Source: Lepraria neglecta
Lineage: Eukaryota; Ascomycota; Lecanoromycetes; Lecanorales; Stereocaulaceae
Length of the DNA stretch: 64,000 bases
Reading direction: 5' to 3'
NCBI GenBank assembly: GCA_033220425.1
Contig: CM065647.1
Span: 1,798,001-1,862,000 of the forward strand
In this document: positions 14,657 through 55,023 of the stretch, in pieces
Layout: the number at the start of each line of letters is the position of its first letter
How positions within the stretch are numbered: the first letter of the stretch is position 1
Made by a program: the position numbers and the translations under genes
Notes under the pieces: model-generated
The model's input: only the letters and a program-made list of their open reading frames with translations
Told to the model about the DNA's origin: nothing
Databases searched by the model: none

Positions 14657-16507
14657 ATGTTCGCCTCGGGCCTTGGCTCATCCAGTACAAAACCACCAAT
14701 GTACCACTACGCTTCCACTGCCTTTAGCAACTCCAGCAAAACCTTTCCTGCGGTAAGTGCACTTCTTGGGCTGTCACCTGTCACTCAGTCTATTGTCTGC
14801 TTCTTGACAGTCTTCCGTGTCCTTACTTCTGCTATTATGACTTGTTTCTCGGCCCAGTTTCGGGTCTGGGATAGCCGTTTGTTTGCAAATATCTAGTATC
14901 AAAGACTTTGTTTTTTAGCAACATTTCGGCTTTCAGCCGACCTTTTCATACCAAATCTCCTAGTTCCGAAACTTTCCTGAAGCCAGCATCATGCCTTCAG
15001 AGAACAATGCTGACTCGGAAATCTGCAGATGGTCAACCCAAAAGCCACTCTCCAACCCATCATCAACAAGCTCCGTCAAACCAAAGCAGATGACGAGCGT
15101 GCCGTCTACGAAGAGAACAAGCTCAGACGCGAGTATGAGAGGGCGAAAGCGAGGAAGGCGAGAAATCTTCAGGATAAAGCCGCTCGCCGCATGAACGACA
15201 CGAAGCCCGCTATACAGAACCATAAAGTCAAACTCCTAGAGGAGATGGAGAAGAACGTCAGGGCACAAATCGAGCATGAAACTATGTCAGATATTCGCGA
15301 AGCGGTCTACGATCAACAAGCGGAAATTGCGGACGATTACAAACGCGAGATCAAGGACCAAGCACGCGAACGGCTCATCCAAGAACTGGAACCAGTCGTC
15401 AAGTCAGAACTAGCAGCACAGTTCGAGAATGAGGTGAAGGAACAGCTCGTCGCAGAGCTTAAGTTGGAACTCAGATCAGAATTGGGACCTACACTTCGAG
15501 CGGAAATCGAGGCAGAGCTGAAGGAGGAACTCAAGGCAGAGCTGGAACCCACACTGCGAGCGGACCTCGAAGCAGAGATCCTTGCCCAACACGACTTCAA
15601 CAAGCCCGACGACCACCTTCCTACGCTCAGCACCCGCCAGAATAACACCACTCAAGCGAAAATCGAGGCACAGAACGGTTCTCAATATGGCAAGCCAGAT
15701 GTTTACCTTTCTACGCTCGAGACTCAACAAGAATATACCATCCAGCCGTCTATTGAATCAGAGAACTGTGCACAATACGACTCCAGCAAGCCCGGAAAGC
15801 GTCGTTTTTCTGAGGAAATGTCCGAATATGACAGTCCTTCGGTCAAGAAATTCAAACAATCACCCTCTGATGACCAGAACTTCGACTTCAGCGGATTACA
15901 GCATGGGCAAGTTCGTGGGCAACAGACCACCAATGAGCAGAATTTCGACTTCAGCGGAGTGCAGGATGGGAAGCTTCACGGAGCGCATGCCATCAATGAC
16001 GAGGATTTGGCGTTGCTTTCCGCATACAACGGGCAGCAGGCCGCGGAATATGCCACAAAGGACGAGGGTTTCGAGACCGGACTCACGCAGAATGGACAGC
16101 TTGATGGGCAATCTGACTCCGATGATGACGCTAATCCACTCGAGTACAACTCTCAGGAAGAAGCTGACACCGATGAGGACCCCAATTCGTCCATGTCTAG
16201 TGATGAGGAGGAGATTGATGAGGAGGATCTCAGTGGAGAGGAGGAGGACAGCCAGGAGGAGGAGGAAGAAATCGAGGAGCAGTACCATGCCGTCTCTCGA
16301 GTCCCACAGCATGCGAGTGCAGCGTCCGGAGTCATATCATGGACAAATACCCCAGCAGACGCACTGGTCATTAATGAATCGGATGAGGAGGACGTGAGGG
16401 TCGAGGAGGACGAGTCCACACTCGTTGGAGACGATGGTTTCGTTGCGATCAATAAGGGGAAGCTTATGGGAAATCGCCTCCCACAGGAGGACCTATTCTA
16501 CTATTGA
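14657..16507 (+). CDS. uncharacterised coiled-coil protein with acidic C-terminus
   Basis: I do not recognise this gene. The main frame, 15029-16507, gives 492 residues. The ATG at 15029 is preceded directly by CTGCAG with a CTGAC branch-like site, and an open exon 14657-14752 ends in a strong GTAAGT donor in matching phase. I therefore propose two exons (14657-14752 and 15029-16507; intron of 276 nt; 524 residues). If that is wrong, 15029 is the start. The protein has a long charged coiled coil (main-frame residues 15-190) rich in Glu/Lys/Arg, with repeated ELKLELRSELGP- and EIEAELKEELKAELEP-type units. A Gln/Asn-rich part follows, containing NFDFSG twice, then long acidic runs (DEEEIDEEDLSGEEEDSQEE). 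Such proteins are often nuclear or cytoskeletal, but no function can be assigned. Confidence 0.6.
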
Positions 16508-16517
16508 ACATTTATTA

Positions 16518-16735
16518 CAGCATTCAAGGCGGCAGCACGCGAAGATACCCACCCAATCAAGCATTCATTGTTTCGTTACATTCAGCATCCATTCGTTACA
16601 CCATAATTCTTGCAACGGCATTCCCAGGTGTTCGACGTTTCAATTTTCATCTTCGGACGGCAGCATTCAAGCGGAGATACCCAGACCAGCATTCGTGTTT
16701 CGTCACATTCAGCATCGATACCAAGCGTTGTTAGA
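16518..16735. repeat. two-copy direct repeat downstream of the coiled-coil gene
   Basis: A unit starting CAGCATTCAAG at 16518 recurs at 16661. Both copies continue with GATACCCA, then CATTC, TGTTTCGT and ACATTCAGCATC. The period is about 143 bp, and the second copy is shorter and diverged. It lies directly before the three hairpin units, in the likely 3' untranslated region. Confidence 0.6.
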
Positions 16736-16790
16736 GATAGACACAACTCCTCCCATTCGCACCACCGCCGTCTCCTTCTCCGGTTGTTTT

Positions 16791-17165
16791 CTTACTCGCG
16801 CCCCGTCTGCGAAGCTGGGACTTGGTCGCCGTCCTCAAGGGCAATGACCAAGGCTTTTGCGGATCAGAGGGGGTGCAGGTAAGACAGCACCATCCCCCCT
16901 CCCTTTCTCAATGCATTGTTAACTCGCGTCCCGTCTGTGATTGCTGGGACTTGGTCGCCGTCCTCAAGGGCACTGGTCAAGGCTTTTGCAAGATCAGAGG
17001 GGGCGCGAGTTAAATGTGTATTTGGGATTGGGGCTCAGGTGGGGGCCCACCGAACCAGATCGGTATCTTTTTTACCCCCGTCCCGTCTGTGATTGCTGGG
17101 ACTTGGTCGCCGTCCTGAAGGGCATTGATCAGGGCTTTTGCAAGATCAGAGGGGGCGGGGGGAGG
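16791..17165. repeat. three tandem copies of a ~94-nt hairpin unit (candidate structured RNA)
   Basis: The copies lie at 16791-16883, 16919-17013 and 17071-17165, separated by unrelated spacers of 35 and 57 nt. They share GTCTG, CTGGGACTTGGTCGCCGTCC, AAGGGCA, GGCTTTTGC and ATCAGAGGGGG. In each, the first and last 14 bases pair with 13, 14 and 13 base pairs (G-U allowed), though the bases differ between copies. The inner arm CTTGGTC pairs over all 7 positions with GACCAAG, GGTCAAG and GATCAGG. The strand of any transcript is unknown. They lie between two convergent genes. I do not recognise them as any known RNA family, tRNA, snoRNA or intron; the ends are not GT and AG. Confidence 0.65.
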
Positions 17166-17397
17166 GAGTATATCGTGAAGGGCTGGTGGGGGGAAATTGA
17201 CGGCAAAGGTTCGTTGCGCTTTGGCGGTGAGTTGTTTTCTGAAAAGGACACAGCTACGGCGGCCTTACGTTTCCTTCCTGTATCAGAATTTTCATGTATC
17301 ATCATAGAAGGGAATAGAAGAAAATCTTACAAAAACAACCATGTGCCAAATACTGATTGTGACATGCCATTGAATTCTATATGCTCTTGCACCTCTA

Positions 17398-18435
17398 TCA
17401 TTGCTTCTTCCTCCCAAATAGCCCTCTCCTCCTCTTTTCATGCCTTCCCATCTCAGCAGGCGACACTTCTCCACTCTCCTTCCATGCCATTCTCCTCCCA
17501 GTCTTCTTGCCGTGCGTCACATCCCTCCTCCTAGCACAGCAACAACACATTCCCATCTGAAAGAGCCACCCCGCAATAGCACATGCACTCGCCGTCCACA
17601 TGAACGCAAACATCTTCATCCCAATCTCCGGTACGATGTTCACCGTGTCCTCAGCGCTGTGCATGACCTTCTGGAAAATGATGAACATGACCGTAGCAAT
17701 GATGGTGGCCGCGGTTGTCGTGAGGGCTGTGAGGAAAGTGAAGATGGCGATTGGGAACATCGTCCAGCGGGCGAAGACCGAGAGCGGCGTGAGGAATATC
17801 GAGACGAAGCAGGTACAAGCGCCGGTGAGGAAGAGGGCGAACATAATGCGGGAAGCTAGGCGGACGAGTGAAAGAGCATCTATGACGTTCTGGGGCAAAG
17901 CAACTGGCAATCATGATTAGCTGCCATCCAAATAGATTACGAAGCAAAGGATCTTACTCGTAGCCCCAGCAAGCAACTCGCTGAGTATGATTGACACAGG
18001 ATCAAACCAATACATCGTTACCGGCTTGCTGCATTCCGTAATCTCATTCCCATAGCCCACGCAGTAGTTCCATAGCCCCACTTGATAGAAATCATGCAAT
18101 CCCAGTGTCCTAGCAATTGAGTTGATTAGACTTGCGTTCGGGACGGACAGCGGTATTATATGGCTCAGGTCTAGCTTCATGAAGTAGATACTTCCGAGAA
18201 CTGGTTTATTGCCTCTTGTGTTGCCGATCTCGACGAGGATCAAGAAGATCAGAGCGATGAAGAAGAGAGCTGATGTCAGGAGGGAGAGGATGAGACGGGT
18301 GCGGGTTGCGGCTTTGATTGTGGATTGAGATAGATGGCCATGATTGGGAGGGTTGGCATCTACGGAAGAAGAGGGAGAGGACTTATTCGCAGGTCGACGC
18401 TGGCGGCGGATGGATACAAATGTTGGGAGGGCCAT
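17398..18435 (-). CDS. SUR7/PalI-family membrane protein
   Basis: This is a protein of 327 residues in two exons: 18435-17958 and 17903-17398 (intron of 54 nt; the 5' part of each exon is phase-checked). It has four predicted membrane spans: about residues 50-72 (LILSLLTSALFFIALIFLIL), 180-200, 210-235 and 260-280. The large loop after the first span contains GLWNYCVGYGNEITEC, the claudin-like W-x-x-C...C pattern of the Sur7/PalI group. The C-terminus is basic and cytoplasmic (CCCCARRRDV, then KRRRGLFGRKKQ). Relatives mark eisosome/MCC plasma-membrane domains or take part in ambient pH signalling (PalI/Rim9). Which of the two applies is not decided by sequence. Confidence 0.8.
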
Positions 18436-19197
18436 CTTGGAGGAGAGACGGTTGAAGGATCTTGTGAAAGGGAAGAATCTTGGGAGGGTTAGAAACGAAT
18501 GTCAATTAAACAGAAAGAGAGAAAAGATATGGCAATTGGAGAGCAGATGAAGAATAAGGCTCAACAACGAGAAAACTGTCCCCCTGGGCTTATCATGCTG
18601 GGGAAATAAACCCTTCTTTAGCTCAATGCAAAAATAACTGACAAATGAGAGAAATCAGTGGCCAAGAATAAAGACTCTTCCCTCGCAGAGATATACTCTC
18701 TCGGCATCCATAGCGTGGCCGTTGTTTCCGTAATTCGCATGCGTGGGATGATTTGCTTTTGGGCGCAGCCTTCTCGGGAGAGCGTCATCATGCGTCTCCG
18801 GCATCTACCCTATCTGAGGCCCCTAAACTGCTTGTGAGATAGACATTGAAACTTCGTAAAAGCGGAGCCAATTTGCGATTGATTAGGACGCCTATTGCGC
18901 CACTAAAGACGCGTGTGATGGCATTTGGGAATCTGGTGCCGGGATCCATGAATCTTACTTTGTGAAAAGTGCAAAAGTCAAACGGATATGCTAACGCCCA
19001 GGCTCCGATACTTCGGAGAGACTGGCCACGATGAAAGGAAGTATTCTAGCTCTCTTCCTATGAATACCTTAATAATCATGCGTAGACGTTGAAAGCTTCT
19101 TGCAAAAGTTCACTTGCCTCAGCCAAGTACCAGGCTTCTTCGCCTACTTGTCATTGTTCTCTCTTCCTATCTCTTCTCACTTTCCAGTATATCTAAA
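18436..19197. promoter_or_regulatory. divergent promoter region
   Basis: About 760 bp between the starts of the SUR7-type gene and the PLC-like gene. A pyrimidine-rich stretch (19140-19195) precedes the plus-strand start. No repeat or RNA gene is seen. Confidence 0.5.
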
Positions 19198-25643: not shown

Positions 25644-27549
25644 TTATATATCAAAGCGCCGTGGGCGTTGAACCTTCCTTCCACGAGATGTAGCTGAAAT
25701 CACCTCCTCGACTTGCAATGCGACGATAGCATGACTAGACCCTTTTACTTGCTTCTTAAGAGTCTTTTGAGCTTTTGGAAGCTTTGTAGATTGCTTGTTT
25801 AAGCTTAGTTGCCCTGCGCTATGGTGTTTTGCTGCTTCTCTTAGCTCTTTTTGAGCTTGCTTATCTGCAGCTTTCTGGGCTAACGCTTCTGCAGCGAGTT
25901 GACGTCTTTTGGTAGCGAGTATTGCCCTATATAGCTTATCCTCCTCTTTTTGAGCCTTTCTGGTAGCTGCTAAAGCTTTTTTGTCAAGGGCTTGCTGCTG
26001 TCGTAGTACTTCTTCAGCGTCTTTTGTAGCTTGAAATTGACGGGCAGCTTGTACTCGCTGTGGGCTAAAGAATTGAGGCCCAGAATCTTCTTCACCAAGT
26101 AGATTAAGGCGTTTACCACGTTGTCTCTTCTTCTTTTCATTCCTAAGGGATACCGTTAAGCCTTTAATGATATGTTGGTCTACTGAGTGCTGAGAAGTAA
26201 GGCGTTCATTCGCTCGAAAAAGCTTCTTAAGCAAAGGTGAATTCGGTTGATTATGGTATTGTCGTTGGACTCGGCGGACAGCACGACATGTCATTGGTGT
26301 CTTTACTATTGAAGGGGCTTCGGTCGGAGTCGGCTTGGTGATTTTGTCTAGAGTCATCGCTGGATTGTAGGGCCAAATGCCAGTTTTTTCGAAGCCGGAA
26401 GCGATATTTGCAGGTGTAAATGCCTTCTGCCAAGCAGGCCAGAAGACGCTCCAAAAGGCTCTTTTCGACATAGAGACCATAGCTAGACTATTTATCATCA
26501 ATTCATTGAGACCCTTGGTGTAATAAGACGCTAAAGGCGCAAAAAGGGATACATCAAGAGGTTGCAAACGATGCGTTGAATGTGGAGGTAAAACCAACAC
26601 GAGAATACGTAGTTTATCACATAGATCGATAAACTTCAGGTTGACATGACTGCTATGTCCATCGACAATCAATAAACGACGTCCTCTTCCGGCTCTTTTG
26701 CTTGTATAATGGTGAAATATTGCTTCTAGCCAATGAAGACCTAAAGCATTACAACTCCATCCGTTTGATGAGACTGCGAAATGGGCTGTATCTTTAGGTA
26801 GCCAGTCCTCTAGCCATGTATCTTGCAGTGTAGATTCACCTTTGTAGATGAGTGATGGAGGGAGAGCAGCTCCTGTAGCGTTGATATATGCAAGCAAGCT
26901 AATGAATTCTCTGCTTCCATCTTGACTTGCATATGTGATACGGCCGTTTTCAAGGGCTTCCCTGCTCATTATACGCTGTGTAGTACCTGCTTGGCCAATC
27001 ACGAATCCTTTTTCATCCCAGTTGTAGATGTTATCGCCGGTAATATTATATTTCTCGACAGCGGCGATTAGCTGTATTGAATATTAGCAATCTAACTAAC
27101 CAACGCTTCAGAAGAGTTACCAAGTCATAGAATTGCTTGAATAAAGGCGCATACTCTGCTTTCATTCGCTGGCTATCGATATTTCGTAGATAGAGGCTTC
27201 TGAGCCTAGTTTTGTAGCGCTTGATAAAATCGCCAGTCCAGTTCTTCCCTACCGGCCGGCCAATCATCTCTTGTGCTAAATTGCGTACAATTTGGCTGGT
27301 AGGAGGTATTCCACGATCGGTTAGGCTATTGATTAAGCCTATTAAGGTCTCTTCTTGAGCGAAAGTGAGGCATTGGCGATATTCGGAAGAAGCAGCTTGC
27401 TTGGACAGCTGTCGGCGTTGGTATCGGCGTTTCAAGGTCGTATTGTTGACGGCATGTTTTCTAGCGGTAGCCTTGAAATTAGGCTTCTCTTGCTGATGCA
27501 AATCAGCGACTGCGAGATCAATACGAGCGTTGTGGGTAGAGCAATCCAT
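25644..27549 (-). CDS. pogo-type transposase (CENP-B/Tc5 HTH plus DDE)
   Basis: This is a transposase of 618 residues in two exons: 27549-27121 and 27071-25644. The intron is 49 nt (GTAACT...TACAG, with a GCTAAT branch-like site). Residues ~10-135 hold the DNA-binding part, including RKHAVNNTTLKRRYQRRQ and the CENP-B-type segment IGRPVGKNWTGDFIKRYKTR. The catalytic domain shows the acidic triad: Asp162 in NWDEKG, Asp280 in LLIVDGHSSH and Asp316 in HRLQPLDVSLFAPL. That gives DD35D spacing. The C-terminus is a Lys/Ala/Gln-rich helical tail ending KVQRPRRFDI. It catalyses cut-and-paste movement at TA sites. The start is the ATG at 27549; the frame also runs upstream into the terminal repeat through a GTG. 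Confidence 0.88.
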
Positions 27550-27560
27550 GATTGAAAATT

Positions 27561-27614
27561 TGATGATTTTTTCGTGTAGGGTGTCGCTGAGCCGGAGGTG
27601 TCGTCGGGCCGGGA
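27561..27614. repeat. right terminal inverted repeat of the transposon
   Basis: Read on the minus strand it begins TCCCGGCCCGACGACACCTC and continues CGGCTCAGCGACACCCT. It again holds two GCGACACC-like motifs, mirroring the left arm. Confidence 0.8.
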
Positions 27615-27932
27615 TAACTTCTACAGCCTGATCCACTCTGCCCTAGCGGCTATGCCCCAAGACCTGCACTTCACTGTATCAGACATGCGCTGTGTCGACT
27701 ACTTCATTGATCGAGGGCAGAGTGACTAATTGATGCCAATTGCAAGGGTCCAATCGATTACCTAAAACGAAATCTAGGGGTACAAATCGTCTACCTTGAG
27801 ACAATTTGAGGAGCTTTCTGGCATAAGCTTGTTGTCTTAGGGAATTATTTCCGCCGACGTTACAGCTACGAGGCTACGAGACTTTGGATTACTGCGCATA
27901 TTATCGATCTACATATAGTACAGGTTGCGATC
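27615..27932. other. upstream region of LST8
   Basis: About 320 bp between the transposon end and the LST8 start. It contains CACTCTGCCCT at 27634-27644 and its inverse AGGGCAGAGTG at about 27713-27723, a possible hairpin. The insertion has probably displaced older upstream sequence to beyond 25485. Confidence 0.45.
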
Positions 27933-45055: not shown

Positions 45056-45652
45056 ACACTTTCCTAGGTCCGGAAAAATAATAGATGGAAGAAAAAATCG
45101 AGGGCGAAATTCCACAGATCAGCGACCTTCATAGATAGAAGAAATACATCGACGAAGAACAGTATAGACAATAATATAGAAATAGAAGAATTGGCACTCT
45201 GCCAAAATTTTCGTCAGAATCATGCTCCTGCGGTGCCGATTTTCCTATACTTCATAGGTAACGTGACAGTGTCTTGGTCGCTCTTACGATGTTTGTTTTG
45301 TCACATTTTGAAGAGGACTGGAACAGTATTTTGGTTAGATCTATGCTCTGCAGCAGCGTAGTATAGCATAGCCGTGGCTCTAGTAAACTGTGAAGGGAGC
45401 CACAATAAAGATTCTTCAACTGGAGAACTGGCTGTCTTGTAAGAGGTAGAATAGGATGCTGCCACGATTATTTGACCAAGGAGCTGAGAATCTGGCTGTT
45501 TTGTAAAAGGCATAGTTGAGTACTGCCCCATTATCTGACCAAGGAGCTGAGAATCTGGCGATTCTCTTGATCCAGGAGCTGCCGTTTGACATTATGATCC
45601 GAGCAAGAAGGTGAAAGTCTATTACAAGTAGGAGCAGACGAAGGTCAAGCCA
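45056..45652. other. intergenic, convergent 3' ends with a tandem repeat
   Basis: About 600 bp between the stops of the aminotransferase and the cytidylyltransferase. It contains the 63-bp tandem repeat listed next. Confidence 0.55.
45423..45580. repeat. 63-bp tandem repeat, 2.5 copies
   Basis: Units start at 45423, 45486 and 45549 (exact 63-bp spacing) with GAGAAxCTGGC and end with TGACCAAGGAGCT or TGATCCAGGAGCT. The first two are full length and diverged in the middle; the third is truncated. It lies in shared 3' untranslated sequence. Confidence 0.75.
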
Positions 45653-51565: not shown

Positions 51566-52410
51566 TTACCGCGATTTGGCCCTGTCCCCTGTGGAAGTCC
51601 GTCCAGAGTTCCATCCAGAATTCCCTCCGGTGCAGCTATTTGGGGAGGCTGTCGGAGTGGTATTGCCAATCGCAGGACGTGGGGTACTAGCTGGCGATGG
51701 TGGGTGGGACACAAATCCACCGTCAGCACCGACTGTAGGTGTGCTTTTGAAGGCCCCTGTTGTTGGTCCAGCGCCCTGGGTATTTACTGCTCGCACGCAT
51801 GGGCTTGGGAGAGACCGATCCGCTGAAGCCTCTAGGCTGGAGAAATCCGCGGGGTCTGCAGTTGAGACGTATGACAGGCAAGAGCCATAATAATCGTCAT
51901 AGTAGGAACCATCATAGGTCTGCGAATCTTAACAGAGACACGGCACCTGGGAGGTGAAGTCAGCGTCCGTGAACCCTGGTGTTTGGCTTTCGCAGAATTC
52001 GGATATCGAGTTCAATGAGCTGCATGCCATGAAATTCGGGTCGTCCGTTATGGCGGTTGGAAGCACTGTCGTTATGGCTGCTGTTGCAAAGGCTGAAGTG
52101 GCAGCGCTACCGAGATTGAGGTCTTCTGCTAGACATTCAACCACAGAATCAACGTCGGTGAGAGTGGAGCATTGACCTATGGTTGGGTCAATGCCTGTAC
52201 AGCTGCTGCAGATGTAGTTCGCGCAGTCGGAGACGCTGTTAGCGCACTGGGCTTCGGCATCTGTGCAGGCTTGACGTTTGAAGAGTGCAACCTTCTCAAC
52301 AGGGCTCAAGCTCAATGCCTGAGCCGTTTGAAGTATTGGAATAATGAAAAGCACGAATGCAAAGAGCCTAGCGAAGGAACTGGTTTGATACAAGGAATTG
52401 ATTTATGGCT
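51566..52410 (-). pseudogene. secreted cysteine-rich protein gene, copy 1, probably a pseudogene
   Basis: The frame encodes a hydrophobic leader (FARLFAFVLFIIPILQTAQA), then a Cys-rich part (ACTDAEAQCANSVSDCANYI, CSSCTGIDPTIGQCS). A Thr/Ala-rich linker and a second Cys-rich part follow (ACSSLNSISEFCESQTPGFT, VPCLC). A stop codon then falls where the sister copy reads Tyr, although related sequence continues to 51566 (YGSCLSYVSTADPADFSSLE, PSPCVRAVNTQGAGPTTGAF). There is no ATG in frame before the leader: the position matching the sister copy's ATG reads ATT, and the frame there is shifted. I therefore call it a pseudogene. The Cys pattern is not a standard CFEM domain; the function of the intact form is unknown. 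Confidence 0.6.
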
Positions 52411-53254: not shown

Positions 53255-54280
53255 CTAGAGTGCGATTATAGTGAACAGGATGGATGAGATCAACAGAATT
53301 GCATTTATCTGCTAGGTTCGGTCAGCTTGAGTTTTCAGAGTTTACAGAGTTTACACTTTTGCGTTTCTTACCGGTGTCATGACCTTTCCTTCGGAGGCGG
53401 CAGTCGCTTTTGAGGATGTGGATGTGGATTTGGGTGAGGATGAGGATGAGGTTATGGATGTTGGGCTTGGTGTGGTATTGACAATCGCAGGACCGTGTGC
53501 ATTAGATGGGAGTGCGACAAGAAGCTACCGCCCCCAGCAGTCGTTGTGCCTGTGAAAGCCGCTGTTGTTGGTCCAGCATTTGAGGTGGCGGGGGCAGCCC
53601 CTCCTACTGCACAAGGGCTAGTGGGAATTGATCCGTCGAAAAAAGTCTCCAAGCTTGAGAGGTCCAAGGAATCCGCCACTGTAGAAAGGTATGGGAGGCA
53701 AGAATTAAGCCAACCATCAAAGGGATACGCGCCCTGCGTGCTGTAACAAAGACACCCCGCAGCAGAGGTGAACGCTGATATGTCGGTGAAGCTTGGTGTT
53801 TGGGTCTCGCAGTAGTCGAATATCGAGTTAACTTCATTGCGGGGCCTGAGAGTATGGATCGTCTGACATCGATGCTGCAAGCCCAGATGTCGAAGCCGCT
53901 GCTGTCGTGGCGCCTGCTGCTAGAAAGGACGGTGCTGTCAGCCAGGACGTCGCTGCCGTCGTTACGTCCTTTATGAATTCCGAAGCTGCAGAGACCGAGT
54001 GATCAATTCCGAACACGTCTTCGATGCATTGGAGTAGTTGTTCGGGATTATAATTTCTGGTGGGGTTAGTGCAACATTGTGCTATTTCCTGGCTGAGGCC
54101 GTCACTGCCGCTTGTACAAGAGTTGCAGAAGTAAGCAACACAGGTCTTGGTGTCGCCAGTGCAATAATCCTTGGCATTGTCGCTACACCCGTTGGAACTC
54201 TGTGTGTGGGTGGATGGTAGGATTGAAACAGCAAGCAGGCCCAGAGCAAAGAGCTTAGCAAGAGAACAGCGCCAAGGCAT
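53255..54280 (-). pseudogene. secreted cysteine-rich protein gene, copy 2, frames disagree
   Basis: This copy starts with a good ATG (54280) and signal peptide (MPWRCSLAKLFALGLLAVSI), then a Cys-rich part (NGCSDNAKDYCTGDTKTCVA, YFCNSCTSGSDGLSQ). The matching downstream part (NSIFDYCETQTPSFTDISAF, GCLCYSTQGAYPFDGWLNSC) lies in the next frame, and the Ser/Thr-rich part after it returns to the first frame. The end is well formed: a GTAAGA donor at 53371, a 62-63-nt intron and a last exon (53308-53255) encoding INAILLISSILFTIIAL, a typical GPI-signal tail. The two one-base offsets may be true mutations, assembly errors or unrecognised introns, so functionality is open. The sister copy 1 lies 0.9 kb downstream on the same strand. 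Confidence 0.5.
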
Positions 54281-55023
54281 CTTACTGGTGGTGCTGATAT
54301 CTGATCGGAGGCTCTTTGACAACAGAGCTGAAATACTGGAGAAAACTGTTCTTATCATGCGCCAAGTTTGGCCTTGCTGTCACGAAAGCTCGCTTGGCTG
54401 TTCGTTGAAGAGCACTTTCGAGGGACATTGGCACGAAAGTGTGGGGGCGGCTAGTAGGCAGTGGCAAACGTGCTGTGTCAATTGCATCTCTTTTTCCTAA
54501 TGTTAGGCGATTGTGGAAGCGGCGGGAGAAGACGGAGGCCACGTATATGATAATTGGATAGCTGCTGTTAAGTAATTGCATAAATGTTCCAGTTCAATCA
54601 CAATGACCTGTTACTCGCTCTTCGCGATCTTCAAGGTTTCTCGGGTTTAATTCATGCAGCGCATGATAGATGGTGAGCATGCGCTTTGCGTTGGAAGCTT
54701 TCAATACCAGGTATACATCAAAGTAAACCGCGAATTGTTCAGTGAAGACATCACAAGCGTTTTAAAGAGTCATGTGCATAGCGACAGCGAAACAGGCAAA
54801 CAAAGGGTATGAGAGCAGCGGCAGAGGGCAGGAGAGTGGTCCCGTTCAATCATCAATTGCAAGGTAGGACATGACGTGTCAAACTTTGGCTTGGATTTTT
54901 ATCTTACAGTGAATCTTTGCGTGTCCAACAGGTCTGGGGTGGGAATCTTCGCTAGAAAGAAAAGTGTTCCTTCGCAGAGTCAGGGAGCACTTGAGGGAAA
55001 CCCTTGGAGCCCAACGAGGGTAC
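54281..55023. other. intergenic
   Basis: About 740 bp, covering the upstream region of copy 2 and the 3' side of the peroxiredoxin gene. Nothing recognisable. Confidence 0.45.

Follow-up and report, generated by a model that had tools for sequence, protein, structure and literature searches.

Three tandem hairpins with respelled stems suggest an undescribed structured RNA in Lepraria neglecta

Introduction

Why neighbouring repeats should differ in the very arms that pair, and nonetheless go on pairing, is the question raised by a short locus of the ascomycete Lepraria neglecta. The locus lies in a stretch of 64,000 nucleotides (assembly GCA_033220425.1, contig CM065647.1, positions 1,798,001 to 1,862,000 of the forward strand), called the window below and numbered from its first base. 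A first-pass annotation had described three hairpin units here, at 16791-16883 (copy 1), 16919-17013 (copy 2) and 17071-17165 (copy 3), coordinates and sequences that proved exact, and had proposed either selection on RNA structure or a mobile hairpin element. We argue that the RNA structure of these hairpins is probably conserved and that the array points to a structured RNA not described before. We would place it among the structured noncoding hairpin RNAs, a known kind in fungi, with an unusual tandem layout.

Arms that differ in sequence and keep their pairing

The outer arms of the units, 14 bases each, differ between copies in 8, 9 and 9 of 28 columns, and no two units start (CTTAC, TTAAC, TTTAC) or end (GTAAG, GTTAA, GGAGG) alike. 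Recounting the arm pairs gave the numbers claimed earlier, 13/14, 14/14 and 13/14 in copies 1, 2 and 3 with G-U included; by Watson-Crick pairing alone there are 11, 13 and 10 of 14. The changes of pair type are likewise as first described (G-C, G-C and C-G at arm position 8; T-G, T-A and C-G at position 6), and two of the arm positions are complete Watson-Crick flips, namely position 3 (U-A, A-U) and position 8 (G-C, C-G). Further in, the CTTGGTC stem is paired in all three copies, as had been stated, with its changes confined to the 3' side, and the middle stem of copy 1 has one base fewer per arm than those of copies 2 and 3. Across the three-copy alignment, standard pairs fill 98.2% of the 109 countable cells, and four pairs have changed on both sides.

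Would a decaying repeat have kept such pairing by chance? We simulated this by placing 13 substitutions, the minimum number, at random on a perfect stem along three lineages, without constraint and with transition weights from 1 to 10 (100,000 runs). Retention of 40/42 arm pairs then had a probability of 1e-5 to 1.9e-3, and the occurrence of two Watson-Crick flips one of 7e-5 to 0.016. With copy 2 as the starting point, the changes in copies 1 and 3 would keep 13 pairs by chance with P values that run from 0.0003 to 0.047 as the transition weight varies. The departures from Watson-Crick pairing, counted in columns that are Watson-Crick in at least one copy, are G-U in eight cases, A-C in one and another mismatch in one (one-sided binomial P 0.02). 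This excess of G-U over A-C points to the + strand RNA as the form under selection.

Three unbranched hairpins on the + strand

With their flanks included, the units are predicted to fold into three unbranched hairpins that lie nearly end to end, the pairing running past the units with their 14-base arms and partly into sequence specific to each copy. Hairpin 1 (copy 1) spans 16782..16891 (+), with only a short copy-specific extension, and has a minimum free energy of -56.3 kcal/mol (z -5.58). Hairpin 2 (copy 2) spans about 16894..17039 (+) and reaches -69.3 kcal/mol (z -6.11) when 16890-17038 is folded; its base is uncertain, since the pairs span 16900-17033, 16894-17039 or 16890-17042 depending on the fold, and the fold of 16894-17039 has 54 pairs and is unbranched. 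Hairpin 3 (copy 3), at 17046..17190 (+), has 55 pairs, also unbranched, and a free energy of -78.0 kcal/mol (z -6.10). The - strand folds are weaker, with z scores of -3.56, -2.89 and -3.15 for hairpins 1, 2 and 3. A scan of the window in 150-base pieces at steps of 15 on both strands, 8514 folds in all, ranked hairpin 3 first. Ranks 1 to 4, and 8/9 of the top nine, are + strand pieces that overlap hairpins 2 and 3 as well as each other. Hairpin 1 falls outside the nine most stable pieces (best listed -58.4). Ten other stretches, drawn mostly from among the stable folds of the window, were mostly branched by eye, and the strongest of them, at 52126-52335 (+), lies opposite an open frame on the - strand.

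The flanks themselves are hardly shared, with an identity between copies of 0.0-0.6 per 15-base segment. We compared the real flanks with letter-shuffled flanks, or with flanks taken from elsewhere in the window, at four flank lengths, and give combined P values. On the + strand the real flanks did better than shuffled ones at all four lengths (P 0.0099, 0.0018, 0.00053 and 0.0034), whereas on the - strand they did so at none (P 0.69, 0.69, 0.13 and 0.10). With flanks from elsewhere as the control, the values were 0.016, 0.028, 0.0013 and 0.00042 on the + strand against 0.73, 0.86, 0.093 and 0.12 on the - strand. Copy 3 contributes most of this signal and copy 2 the next largest share; it is weakest in copy 1. 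When flanks and arms are taken together, each copy pairs best with itself (-29.3, -35.9 and -33.1, as against -12.3 to -28.3 for the six crosses).

It is possible that complementarity was maintained at the level of DNA. Palindrome-templated repair produces paired changes of any type, and by copying one arm onto the other, or by template switching, it could keep the arms complementary without selection on an RNA; it would account for any paired change, the two Watson-Crick flips included, and could also create the pairing of the flanks. However, such repair restores Watson-Crick pairs and is neutral with respect to strand, yet on the + strand G-U occurs in eight columns and A-C in one, and folding is stronger on the + strand than on the -. 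We therefore regard a DNA-level origin as improbable.

A shared tip and an invariant block

While the arms diverge, the core of the units is largely held in common. Between copies 2 and 3 the core differs in 4/67 columns and the arms in 9/28 (Fisher P 0.0017); the corresponding counts are 8/67 and 8/28 for copies 1 and 2 (P 0.070) and 9/67 and 9/28 for copies 1 and 3 (P 0.046). The conserved part comprises the tip and the internal loops, together with the greater part of the loop. Within it, the longest invariant run is a 22-base block on the 5' arm, GCTGGGACTTGGTCGCCGTCCT, in alignment columns 25-46, which is identical in all copies and lies on the + strand at 16814..16835 in copy 1, 16943..16964 in copy 2 and 17095..17116 in copy 3. 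Opposite this block three paired columns vary, and each time a standard pair is retained; in addition, a single column varies in the loop and another in an internal loop. Over the whole unit, 8 columns vary on the 5' arm and 14 on the 3' arm.

A scenario that accommodates both the arms and the tip begins with an ancestral hairpin that would have been duplicated into three tandem copies, the tip (about 67 bases) then being kept in sequence and the lower stem mainly in pairing, as far as three copies can tell. In a + strand transcript the hairpins would form three distinct rods, double-stranded almost throughout, which might be cut into small RNAs by an RNase III of the Dicer kind. The 22-base block would yield one common small RNA from all three rods, while the strand that partners it would be free to drift by way of G-U pairs. 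We count two features as points for processing of this type: the rods are unbranched, and the unchanging block faces columns that vary and still pair. Provided that the RNA structure is conserved, we would give a Dicer step slightly less than an even chance. Stated in full, the structure and the cut together, a tandem three-hairpin + strand RNA that lies between convergent fungal genes and is processed by a Dicer-type enzyme is possible rather than likely. We hold just as tentatively, if with a shade more readiness, to a wider version, an undescribed fungal noncoding RNA with three hairpins, a shared constrained tip and respelled stems that could act either as a triple source of one small RNA or as a triple platform for a protein. 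If true, the locus would be a clean test case, one in which the pairing is revealed threefold by the sequence changes themselves: all copies could be removed by a single deletion, and the small RNA to expect would follow from the invariant block.

Identities that were considered

None of the known families that we searched accounts for the array. Rfam 15 gave no match in the whole window at the gathering score; with E values up to 10, region 16500-17400 gave 7 weak matches, of which 4 fell on the units; every one stayed far under its cut-off, for instance mir-643 with 18.4 bits against a cut-off of 65. ARAGORN, in its bacterial-code setting, found no tRNA gene in the window. A covariance model built from the three copies and run over the 64 kb with filters off returned 9 matches, comprising the units on the + strand, the same units on the - strand and three at E 4.7-9, and no fourth copy was found. 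Exact scans with a 19-base core gave one match in viral contigs and two in prokaryote genomes, with alignments to the core of 22-27 bases; the viral match lies inside an open frame whose codons there spell DGDQVPAG. Three more patterns gave 2, 0 and 0 matches in the viral contigs, the two being unrelated by eye. Viral or prokaryote relatives were set aside, the core-pattern matches in viral contigs (4 scans) and prokaryote genomes (1 scan) being short and unrelated; as only these two collections were covered, the lack of relatives carries no information on conservation. Transcription by RNA polymerase III was judged unlikely, by argument only, because each unit contains one TTTT run. What is looked for in fungal microRNA-like RNAs (milRNAs) and Dicer hairpins, a stable hairpin outside coding sequence, is present here. 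In the part of the literature on fungal hairpin RNAs, milRNAs, introners and miniature inverted-repeat transposable elements (MITEs) that was available to us, which left out most subscription papers, we saw no description of such an array.

The first-pass annotation had allowed that the pairs might reflect coding constraint on a peptide, the pairing of a coding repeat being then a by-product. Some frames do run open through copies 2 and 3, for example a - strand frame that includes APSDLAKAL. However, the codon differences between these two copies number 2 synonymous and 7-8 non-synonymous in every one of the six frames, single bases missing from copy 1 relative to the others shift the frames, and three open stretches across the array have no Pfam match. 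Coding is thus not supported, and we consider it extremely unlikely.

The mobile hairpin element that had been offered as the second explanation, whether MITE-like or introner-like, fared little better. In its favour, similarity between the copies drops beyond the limits of the units, copy 2 (and copy 2 alone) carries TTAA at both arm ends, and introner-like elements exist in Dothideomycete fungi, according to the part of PMC4457414 available to us. However, the outermost bases differ between copies and the unit ends are the least conserved part, so that the shared terminal inverted repeats of a MITE or other inverted-repeat transposon are lacking. So too is a target-site duplication: at the offsets tried, no direct repeat longer than 4 bases flanks the units, the longest being 4 bases at copy 2, and the 64 kb hold no extra copy. 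As the first-pass annotation rightly pointed out, the units do not have the GT and AG ends of introners. They are intergenic, whereas introner-like elements, in the same part of that paper, are introns present in many near-identical copies, and an introner-like identity, with GT..AG ends inside a gene, was discarded. A mobile element of either kind seems to us distinctly improbable.

Position between convergent genes

The array sits between two convergent frames. Upstream is an open frame of 497 codons, measured from stop to stop, at 15014..16507 (+), with a charged, acidic C-terminal part and no match to a Pfam family; its stop precedes hairpin 1 by about 275 bases. Downstream is a gene of the SUR7/PalI family, which is a fungal family, in two open frames at 17398..18501 (-), matching PF06687 with E values of 1.4e-18 and 1.1e-17. 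Because this match is split over the two frames, the sequence suggests an intron between them. From the end of the array to the end of the convergent frame at 17398 there are about 208 bases. The Pfam search also placed a DRE2_N match near the array, and with the SUR7/PalI match it gives the window a fungal look. Judged by this arrangement, the hairpins probably lie within, or just past, the 3' untranslated region (UTR) of the upstream + strand gene.

It is therefore possible that the hairpins act in cis. In this alternative, the main rival to Dicer processing, they would stay in the messenger RNA of the + strand gene as a 3' UTR or 3'-end element, either binding a protein at the tip or slowing the polymerase ahead of the SUR7-type gene. 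The position of the array past the + strand stop and ahead of the end of the convergent frame speaks for such a role, as do the conservation seen in the tip, in the internal loops and in the bulk of the loop, and the motif-rich stretch directly upstream. There is also a fungal precedent in the rps0 motif, which is located in 3' UTRs (PMC5640933, in the part available). However, a binding site would not require as much duplex as three near-continuous rods provide, and a role at convergent genes by itself makes no prediction about a conserved tip sequence. We take a cis-acting element to be somewhat unlikely.

The motif of the upstream stretch is CATTC, which occurs 9 times in the 273 bases of 16508-16780 (+), directly 5' of the array. 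This is its densest 260-base stretch, the + strand of the whole window holding 87 in total. The density stems partly from a diverged direct repeat (about 16520-16592 and 16663-16719) with a spacing of 127-132 bases, close to the 129 bases between hairpins 1 and 2, and the cluster may be one of protein-binding motifs in a 3' UTR. The sole AATAAA of 16400-17700 is on the - strand, at 16511-16516, and thus the SUR7-type transcript might cross the array in antisense.

Elsewhere in the window, overlapping open frames at 25644-27642 (-) with a DDE_1 endonuclease and a Tc5-type helix-turn-helix domain make up a pogo/Fot1-like DNA transposon. Small cysteine-containing, secreted-looking open frames, alike by eye, lie at 51929-52402 and 53452-54379 (-), and the pieces 51932-52402 and 53837-54379 had no Pfam match. 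A tandem repeat at 45423-45559 (period 63, 2.2 copies, 82% matches) has a weak fold of -43.1 kcal/mol over 181 bases.

Limits of the case for a conserved, processed RNA

A number of observations weigh against a conserved RNA that is cut by Dicer. The covariation comes from three copies in one genome and has little power. When the changed positions are held fixed, the probability that 13 pairs survive by chance is 0.008-0.30, and when the 3' letters of the columns are redealt, the observed values are reached in 27/500 shuffles, a borderline result. The 3' arm of copy 3 is almost entirely G and pairs easily, and arms mixed between copies still form 12, 12, 12, 12, 11 and 11 of 14 pairs; own-copy arms outpair them in every case, by a margin of just 1-3 pairs. 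As to the flanks, the 25-base flanks of copy 1 form a duplex of -4.4 kcal/mol that does not surpass 90% of random pairs. Of 1000 flanks from elsewhere in the window, 608 do equally well for this copy at a length of 25 bases and 790 at 30. The 25-base 5' flank of copy 2 pairs with the 3' flank of copy 3 at -17.8 kcal/mol and with its own at -17.4, and the flanks of copy 3 also reach 47 and 22 of 1000 on the - strand. Among the 20 places listed from folds of 160 bases, 18 others are unbranched with 51-56 pairs, albeit weaker (-38 to -58): hairpin length alone is not special in the window. The 22-base block was chosen after inspection, and the conserved tip exceeds a small-RNA duplex and takes in most of the loop. 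A protein-binding element would account better for a conserved tip of this extent.

The original interpretation is supported in part, through its proposal of selection on RNA structure. The two-sided changes, the prevalence of G-U over A-C and the stronger + strand fold argue for that proposal, whose force is limited by there being three copies.

Comparison with known systems

Three kinds of fungal system invite comparison, each through a paper available to us in part. The introner-like elements of Dothideomycetes (PMC4457414) resemble the array as short repeated elements in a fungal genome. They differ from the array, whose units are intergenic, do not have intron ends and are variable at their own ends.

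A closer likeness is to the 15 structured RNA motifs found in fungi by comparative genomics, for example ies6, hexA, rps0 and SART-1 (PMC5640933). These too are hairpins with internal loops, in or beside the untranslated parts of protein genes, and for SART-1, as for the array, the strand was chosen by weighing G-U against A-C. By their description in the available part of that work, the motifs each occur in several species, which sets apart an array of three tandem copies in one genome; the array adjoins no gene named in that part.

Perhaps the most instructive comparison is with fungal milRNAs. Among 1727 published fungal hairpin small-RNA loci, fewer than half met basic standards (PMC9757828). 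The best-supported tier there requires a locus to be intergenic, conserved from genome to genome and backed by sequencing, and the second requires two of the three; location alone was judged for the array, and therefore we do not class it as a milRNA. According to the same partly available source, hairpins of fungi are mostly short, the two strands of the duplex usually lying <20 nt apart, whereas the rods here are long, at 110-146 nt, and the portion that we could use describes no tandem fungal milRNA precursors with a common tip and a differing base. What the array does share with the precursors of fungal milRNAs and other hairpin small RNAs is a stable, unbranched, noncoding hairpin, with an invariant 22-base block facing a partner arm that varies and yet pairs.
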